Shown here: positions 1 through 1,394 of the stretch, piece by piece
Layout: every line of letters begins with the position of its first letter
Numbering within the stretch: the first letter of the stretch is position 1
Source: an uncultured Pseudomonadota bacterium
Lineage (GTDB): Bacteria > Pseudomonadota > Gammaproteobacteria > Steroidobacterales > Steroidobacteraceae
Length of the DNA stretch: 33,333 bases
Direction: 5' to 3'
Assembly: GCA_903908825.1 (NCBI GenBank)
Contig: CAIVTJ010000030.1
Coordinates: forward strand, 1 to 33,333
The notes under the pieces: generated by a model
Seen by the model: the letters and a program-made list of their open reading frames with translations, nothing else
Databases searched by the model: none
What the model was told of the DNA's origin: nothing
Made by a program: the position numbers and the translations under genes

Positions 1-399
1 CACCTTGACCAGACGCCAGTTGCGCAGCACGTACTCATGGATCTCGGCGCGTACCCAGTGCACGGCAAACGACACCATGCGCACGTTAACCGACGGGTCA
101 AAGCGCTTCACGGCCTTCATCAGGCCCACGTTGCCTTCCTGCACCAGGTCGCCCAGCGGCAGGCCATAGCCCACATAGCCGCGGGCGATATGCAGTACAA
201 AGCGCAGGTGTGAGAGCACCAGTTCGCGCGCGGCGGTCAGGTCGTTGTGCTGCTGCAGGCGGGAAAACAGCGCCACTTCCTGTTCACGTGTGAGCACGGG
301 AATGCGGCTGATGCGCTCGGCATAAGCCTCGAAACTGCCCAGCGGGCCGGCCAGCAACTGGTCGTTCGGGCGGGCGGCAAGCAATGCGGCGGTGGTCAT
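1..399 (-). CDS. rpoH: RNA polymerase heat-shock sigma factor RpoH (sigma-32), 5' part
   Basis: The N-terminal 133 codons of sigma-32, which directs core RNA polymerase to heat-shock promoters in the cytoplasm. The gene runs off the left edge, so region 4 and the RpoH box are not visible. Seen: an N-terminal region 1.2-like stretch ([20 protein letters not shown]), then the region 2 core with [36 protein letters not shown] and RNWRLVKV. The last two strings are close to the E. coli protein and separate RpoH from RpoD and RpoS. The ATG at 399 has a GGAG eight bases upstream. It follows ftsX on the same strand after 71 bp, the standard ftsYEX-rpoH order. The gap carries its own promoter and a CIRCE operator, so transcription is probably HrcA-controlled. 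Confidence 0.96.
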
Positions 400-432: not shown

Positions 433-462
433 ATATTAGCACTCACCGACCTAGAGTGCTAA
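433..462 (-). promoter_or_regulatory. Predicted rpoH promoter embedded in the CIRCE element
   Basis: On the minus strand a -35-like TTAGCA (457-462) is separated by 18 bases from a -10-like TAATAT (433-438), which is preceded by TGC as in extended -10 promoters. Both -35 and the upstream edge of -10 fall inside the CIRCE repeat, so bound HrcA would occlude RNA polymerase. The hexamers match consensus at four of six positions each, so the exact start is tentative. Confidence 0.5.
436..462. promoter_or_regulatory. CIRCE operator (HrcA-binding inverted repeat) upstream of rpoH
   Basis: A perfect 9-bp inverted repeat with a 9-bp spacer: TTAGCACTC at 436-444 and GAGTGCTAA at 454-462. This is identical to the canonical CIRCE half-sites and spacer length bound by the heat-shock repressor HrcA. 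It lies wholly in the 71-bp gap between ftsX and rpoH, 37 bases upstream of the rpoH start, and overlaps the predicted promoter. hrcA itself is not in the window. The site is read directly; HrcA repression of rpoH is inferred from the family. Confidence 0.95.
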
Positions 463-470
463 CAACCGTG

Positions 471-1394
471 TCACGATTCGAATCGGGGGTGTAGGGCGGC
501 CAGCTGCCGGGAGGCGGCGATCCAGGCGCCGGTGAGGCCCAGCAGCACGCCAGCGGCCAGCAGGGCGGCGAACTCCCGCCAACCCGGGGCGGCCAGCGCA
601 AAGTGGCTGCCGTAGCTGACGGCCAGCTGGCTGACAGGCGTGGCCAGCAGCAAAGAGCCGAAGGTCAGCAACAGCATGGCCAATACGGCCCCCAGGCCGC
701 CGTAGAGCGCGCCCGTATAGAGAAAAGGCCTGCGGATGAACGCGGGGCTGCCGCCGACCAGCTGCGTGATGTCGATCTCGGCGCGCCGGCTGTGGATCTC
801 GAGGCGGATGATATTGCCCACGACCGCGACCACACCCAGCGCGAGCAGGCCGCCCACGGTCAGTGCCAGCCGGCGTAGCAAAGCCAGAATGGCCGTCAGG
901 CGCCGCGTCCAGTCGCCATCGACCTGTACAACTTCTACTTGTGGCCAGGCTGCCAGTTCGCGCCGCAGCGCGTCGATGGCGGCGGGACCGCTGGCGCTGG
1001 CTGAAGGCCTCAGACTGATGACCTGCGGCAGCGGGTTATCGCCCAGTGCAGCCAGTGCAGCCGCCAGCCCGCTGTCTTGCTGCAGTTGCCGCAAAGCCTG
1101 CTCAGCGGTGATGACCTGCACGGTCGAGACCTCGGGGCGGGTGCGCAGTTGCGCGGCCCGTTGCTGCACTTCGGGCAGCGGGGTCTCGAGCTTGAAATAG
1201 ACGCTGAGGTCGATGGCGGTGGCGGCCTGGTCACTGACGCGGCTCGCGCTCTCGACCAGCAGCGCAAAGCCCGCCGGCAGTGTCAGCGCGATGGCGATCA
1301 CCGCGACCGTAAAGCCGGTGGCCCAGGGCGCGCGTACCAGCCGCCCGAGCGCAAACAGCAGCGCCTGCAGGTGCCGGGCTAACCAACCGCTCAT
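471..1394 (-). CDS. ftsX: Cell-division ABC transporter-like permease FtsX
   Basis: Inner-membrane partner of the FtsE ATPase. FtsEX sits at the divisome and transmits ATPase state to septal peptidoglycan hydrolases through a periplasmic loop. The 307-residue protein has the expected plan: a short cytoplasmic N-terminus, TM1 at about residues 25-47, a periplasmic domain to about 170, then three C-terminal TM segments (about 173-195, 222-250, 270-293). The motif IDITQLVGGSPAFIRRPF after the second TM matches the FtsX cytoplasmic loop. Its ATG overlaps the ftsE stop by 4 bp (ATGA), indicating coupled translation. It is the third gene of ftsY-ftsE-ftsX. Confidence 0.95.
   Translation of the reverse strand: MSGWLARHLQALLFALGRLVRAPWATGFTVAVIAIALTLPAGFALLVESASRVSDQAATAIDLSVYFKLETPLPEVQQRAAQLRTRPEVSTVQVITAEQALRQLQQDSGLAAALAALGDNPLPQVISLRPSASASGPAAIDALRRELAAWPQVEVVQVDGDWTRRLTAILALLRRLALTVGGLLALGVVAVVGNIIRLEIHSRRAEIDITQLVGGSPAFIRRPFLYTGALYGGLGAVLAMLLLTFGSLLLATPVSQLAVSYGSHFALAAPGWREFAALLAAGVLLGLTGAWIAASRQLAALHPRFES

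Follow-up and report, generated by a model that had tools for sequence, protein, structure and literature searches.

In HrcA systems of the Bacillus type, GroEL keeps the repressor HrcA active and is titrated away by stress. Control of E. coli rpoH through RNA structure and protein stability is well established, and the textbook view derived from that organism is of an rpoH regulated mostly after transcription, with HrcA absent. The sigma-E consensus, as in E. coli, reads GAACTT-N16-TCNNA. One of the E. coli rpoH promoters, P3, is sigma-E-dependent (PMC8103513). A CIRCE element upstream of rpoH, at position -51, has been predicted in Geobacter sulfurreducens, where it is listed in Table 8 of Rodionov et al. 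2004 (PMC545781).

The window analysed here (the whole stretch of DNA, 33,333 nucleotides) has its first edge within rpoH, and the features relevant to its control are as follows.

1..399, minus strand: rpoH (sigma-32), N-terminal 133 aa, truncated by the edge of the window; top-matching profiles NF005143/TIGR02392 RpoH
433..441 (read 441-433), minus strand: putative sigma70-type extended -10, TGCTAATAT, with the hexamer TAATAT at 438-433, its TAA common to the CIRCE right arm
436..462, minus strand: CIRCE operator, TTAGCACTC-TAGGTCGGT-GAGTGCTAA in the rpoH sense, perfect 9-bp arms, 0 mismatches
445..480, minus strand: position of the sigma-E promoter of relatives, GAAC 15-16 nt before CIRCE and the -10 (TC-NNA) where the left arm meets the spacer
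457..462, minus strand: candidate -35, TTAGCA, weak, inside the CIRCE left arm; 4/6 to TTGACA, 18-nt spacer
471..1394, minus strand: ftsX, directly upstream of rpoH on the same strand; TIGR00439 above cut-off

A motif scan recovered the palindrome TTAGCACTC-ACCGACCTA-GAGTGCTAA at 436-462 with 0 mismatches to TTAGCACTC-N9-GAGTGCTAA, both arms and the spacer of 9 agreeing with the CIRCE consensus, and thereby confirmed a first-pass annotation that had proposed an exact canonical HrcA operator between ftsX and rpoH. The operator itself occupies 436-462; the span given there, 433-462, takes in a further TAT, with which the minus strand reads a -10-like TAATAT. No second site turned up in the window when as many as 3 mismatches were permitted, and none is expected by chance (0/100 shuffles yielded a CIRCE). 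Both ftsX and rpoH are encoded on the minus strand, and the operator falls in the 71 bp that separate them, 36 nt from the rpoH ATG; on the rpoH strand the surroundings read GGTTG-TTAGCACTC-TAGGTCGGT-GAGTGCTAA-TATGCGG, and the ribosome site is GGAG. A search for a terminator between ftsX and rpoH found none, so that read-through into rpoH is possible.

The repeat thus sits in the 5' region of a heat-shock gene, at a position where comparative evidence points to a -10 box. Its right arm and flank yield TGC-TAA-TAT, an extended -10 whose hexamer TAATAT scores 4/6 to consensus. Overlaps with TTAGCA and TGCTAA prove little by themselves because any CIRCE contains both. The base at +3 after CIRCE is informative, since CIRCE itself does not dictate it: in an alignment of relatives this base was T in 89/92 rpoH sites, creating TAANNT -10 boxes, compared with 1/34 groES sites. 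A generic promoter scan of the window called no promoter at CIRCE/rpoH, and the predicted promoter rests on the comparative evidence of T at +3. Of the earlier proposal that CIRCE covers the predicted rpoH -35 and -10, the overlap with a conserved promoter position therefore stands, but the -35 is weak and the scan made no call. An HrcA-repressed rpoH transcript would start 6-8 nt after TGCTAANNT.

Consistent with a cognate repressor for this operator, a profile search of the genome, as the first-pass annotation had recommended, identified one hrcA (TIGR00331, 330.7 bits vs a cut-off of 197.2), followed by grpE and dnaK. Upstream of this hrcA-grpE-dnaK cluster no CIRCE was present in this genome with up to 5 mismatches allowed, and among the relatives only G031 carried one there. 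The recommended search for further CIRCE sites, run over the whole assembly, returned the rpoH site as the sole one in a draft without groESL; groEL and groES were both sought in the assembly (G000) and neither was found, so the CIRCE count is incomplete. The draft was scored 98.8% complete yet lacks both genes, which makes an assembly gap at groESL the likely explanation. An HrcA dedicated to rpoH alone, as the lone CIRCE might imply, was rejected, given that the draft contains neither groEL nor groES and that relatives carry both sites.

To place the operator in context, 40 genomes from genus to order, the window's own included, were compared. CIRCE was present in 39/40, mostly as exactly two sites per genome, and the flanks place one of the pair 5' of rpoH and the other 5' of groES. 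The 27-bp element, whose alignment upstream of rpoH had also been suggested, was found there in 38/40 genomes, own included, and is conserved across the class; in the family to which the window belongs, most rpoH sites are perfect. CIRCE covers the promoter at rpoH, and at groES comes after a sigma-32-like promoter (CTTGAAA...CTATTA). At groES in the window's family, the promoter-distal arm is usually changed to TTAGCAGCC, with a perfect gene-proximal arm in L125, L127-L134, L136-L139, L141, L145, L147 and L149 (family f1); this altered arm may allow groESL to be derepressed earlier than rpoH. Variant rpoH sites occurred in Xanthomonadaceae-type genomes and one of the Competibacteraceae (L066, L069, L070, L073, L075, L084, L102, L111), and were often symmetric (TTAGCAGTC-N9-GACTGCTAA), which suggests that the preference of HrcA has shifted or that the site has been weakened. 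The rpoH location had been expected to inform on heat-shock wiring in this lineage; the site is real, but it is not peculiar to the lineage, being conserved to class and predicted earlier in Geobacter. On comparative sequence evidence, the HrcA operator at rpoH is an old, conserved link rather than a lineage-specific one.

The presence of the rpoH operator followed that of its repressor. Among 50 named genomes, 31 had both rpoH-CIRCE and hrcA, 13 had neither and 6 were discordant (44/50 agree; Fisher p=6e-7, phylogeny ignored), and the site was absent from most genomes lacking hrcA. The order-level relative G035, the only such CIRCE-free relative, also had no detected hrcA. Exceptions ran in both directions: L067, L068, L095 and L107 have hrcA without rpoH-CIRCE, and rpoH-CIRCE without a detected hrcA occurs in L084, L096 and G036 and in a small number of further relatives, for the most part drafts. 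G036, of the same order, has CIRCE at both rpoH and groES and no HrcA match in a 1.4-Mb genome that is 92% complete; its hrcA may be divergent or unassembled.

Alignment of the 92 non-redundant rpoH sites revealed a further layer. GAAC starts 15 or 16 nt before CIRCE in 71/92 sites, with one more at 14, and NAA stands at the spacer start in 58 of the 72 GAAC-bearing sites, a lower bound because this criterion for the sigma-E -10 is too strict and misses TCTGA and TCTTA. The two boxes co-occur (p=1e-7 over the 92 sites, relatedness ignored) and together read GAACTT-N16-TCNNA, with the -10 overlapping the CIRCE left arm; groES CIRCE sites have neither the GAAC nor the sigma-E -10 box. The composite GAAC-N11-CIRCE-NNT occurred within 1 mismatch in about 56/184 class genomes, compared with 0 for a reversed control pattern in the same 184, and 20/20 of the composite loci checked lay immediately 5' of rpoH. 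In CIRCE-free genomes a sigma-E match is frequently still present ahead of rpoH (13/20), where chance would give 0.014 per upstream region (mononucleotide shuffles). As read from these alignments, CIRCE is threaded through a sigma-E promoter in most HrcA-bearing relatives. RpoE is encoded in the window's genome, and in the genus rpoE has a similar promoter-like sequence ahead of its own gene; in the window's organism this is a candidate sigma-E autoregulatory promoter, GAACTT-N16-TCAAT (L166:526-552). Among the open-literature papers on CIRCE and rpoH, neither the titles and the part of the abstracts covered nor the passages of PMC545781 covered describe a nested sigma-E/CIRCE layout.

The window's copy departs from this arrangement. 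ATCG replaces GAAC and TCTAG replaces TCNNA, so that both sigma-E boxes are lost and no GAACTT and TCNNA pair 15-17 nt apart is present at this position. A sigma-E promoter elsewhere was likewise rejected, no other match occurring within 1.1 kb before rpoH. A degenerate GAATCG two bases farther out may be a remnant. Sigma-E input to rpoH thus appears to have been lost at this position in the window's species. The genus is represented by nine genomes: G001, G004, G006, G007 and G008 retain the sigma-E boxes, and the window's species, G002, G003 and G005 lack them; CIRCE is perfect in 4/4 of the latter, so HrcA control seems to be under stronger constraint here than sigma-E input. The wiring of rpoH proposed in the first-pass annotation is supported for HrcA, but it overlooked the nested sigma-E promoter of the relatives and its loss here.

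Two other readings of the repeat were weighed against HrcA repression. The operator could be a relic, with HrcA control of rpoH minor and regulation exerted mainly through RNA structure and protein stability. Control of the E. coli type needs no operator, and some species of the genus have already lost the sigma-E part; CIRCE nevertheless stays perfect in the species without sigma-E boxes though its flanks have diverged, and no structured 5' leader was seen here, where the first 88 nt, which correspond to no more than a portion of the region folded in E. coli, gave z 0.56 and an Rfam search of the rpoH 5' region gave no match. Over that portion the fold and the search showed neither an RNA thermosensor nor an Rfam element at rpoH. 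We consider a relic operator improbable. The inverted repeat might instead act mainly as RNA, its hairpin altering rpoH mRNA stability or processing in transcripts reading through from ftsX. In read-through RNA the two arms of the repeat would pair in a stem of 11 bp (z -2.28; -27 kcal/mol for 76 nt) and the ftsX-rpoH interval has no detected terminator, but conservation across the class extends to primary sequence beyond pairing, presence of the repeat follows hrcA, and the predicted rpoH start lies downstream of the repeat, such that most rpoH mRNA would lack it. A mainly RNA-based role is accordingly very improbable.

The element at 436-462 is, with high probability, an HrcA operator that represses rpoH transcription, because a perfect CIRCE occupies a conserved promoter position, hrcA is in the genome, and the site is conserved in relatives and absent from most genomes in which hrcA is lacking. 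In unstressed cells, HrcA kept active by GroEL would occupy 436-462 and keep RNA polymerase off the TGCTAATAT promoter. Once GroEL is taken up with misfolded protein, HrcA would leave the operator, rpoH would be transcribed and sigma-32 would turn on its regulon; GroEL titration and rpoH derepression are here inferred by analogy with Bacillus-type systems. Very probably groESL belongs to the sigma-32 regulon; in relatives it is preceded by a sigma-32 promoter with the second CIRCE immediately after. HrcA would therefore act on two levels, the sigma factor and one main target, with sigma-32 raising groESL, GroEL restoring HrcA activity and negative feedback being closed on both. In most relatives the operator also lies on the sigma-E promoter, so that the input from envelope stress to rpoH would be gated by HrcA as well.

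More broadly, we think it somewhat probable that HrcA-bearing Gammaproteobacteria (GTDB) ancestrally possessed, as their rpoH promoter, a 45-bp module in which an HrcA operator, its arms feeding both -10s, is combined with a sigma-E promoter and a sigma70 promoter of the extended -10 kind. Through this module GroEL/HrcA would gate access to the sigma-32 regulon from housekeeping and envelope-stress inputs alike, and some lineages, including this species, would have dropped the sigma-E input and kept HrcA control. Genomes without hrcA often retain the sigma-E promoter alone. In much of the class HrcA appears to control rpoH at the level of transcription, the two heat-shock systems being stacked and not parallel, and the nested sigma-E/HrcA promoter of the relatives allows a direct test of how signals of envelope stress and of cytoplasmic stress are integrated.

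Compared with described HrcA/CIRCE regulons (the groESL and dnaK operons of Bacillus subtilis and proteobacterial groESL), the locus has the same exact consensus operator and shares both the hrcA-grpE-dnaK cluster and an operator overlapping the promoter. Unlike Bacillus subtilis-type regulons, its target is the sigma-32 gene and its own hrcA-dnaK operon carries no CIRCE. The predicted Geobacter sulfurreducens site is also a perfect CIRCE before the same gene at a similar distance from the start codon (PMC545781); that bacterium belongs to another class, its hrcA-grpE-dnaKJ also has CIRCE, unlike here, and the passages of PMC545781 on its rpoH mention no sigma-E element alongside CIRCE. As at E. 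coli P3, a sigma-E promoter precedes rpoH in the window's relatives (GAACTT-N16-TCNNA), its boxes having been lost in the window's species. In contrast to E. coli, which has neither HrcA nor CIRCE, the HrcA-bearing relatives have CIRCE threaded through that sigma-E promoter.
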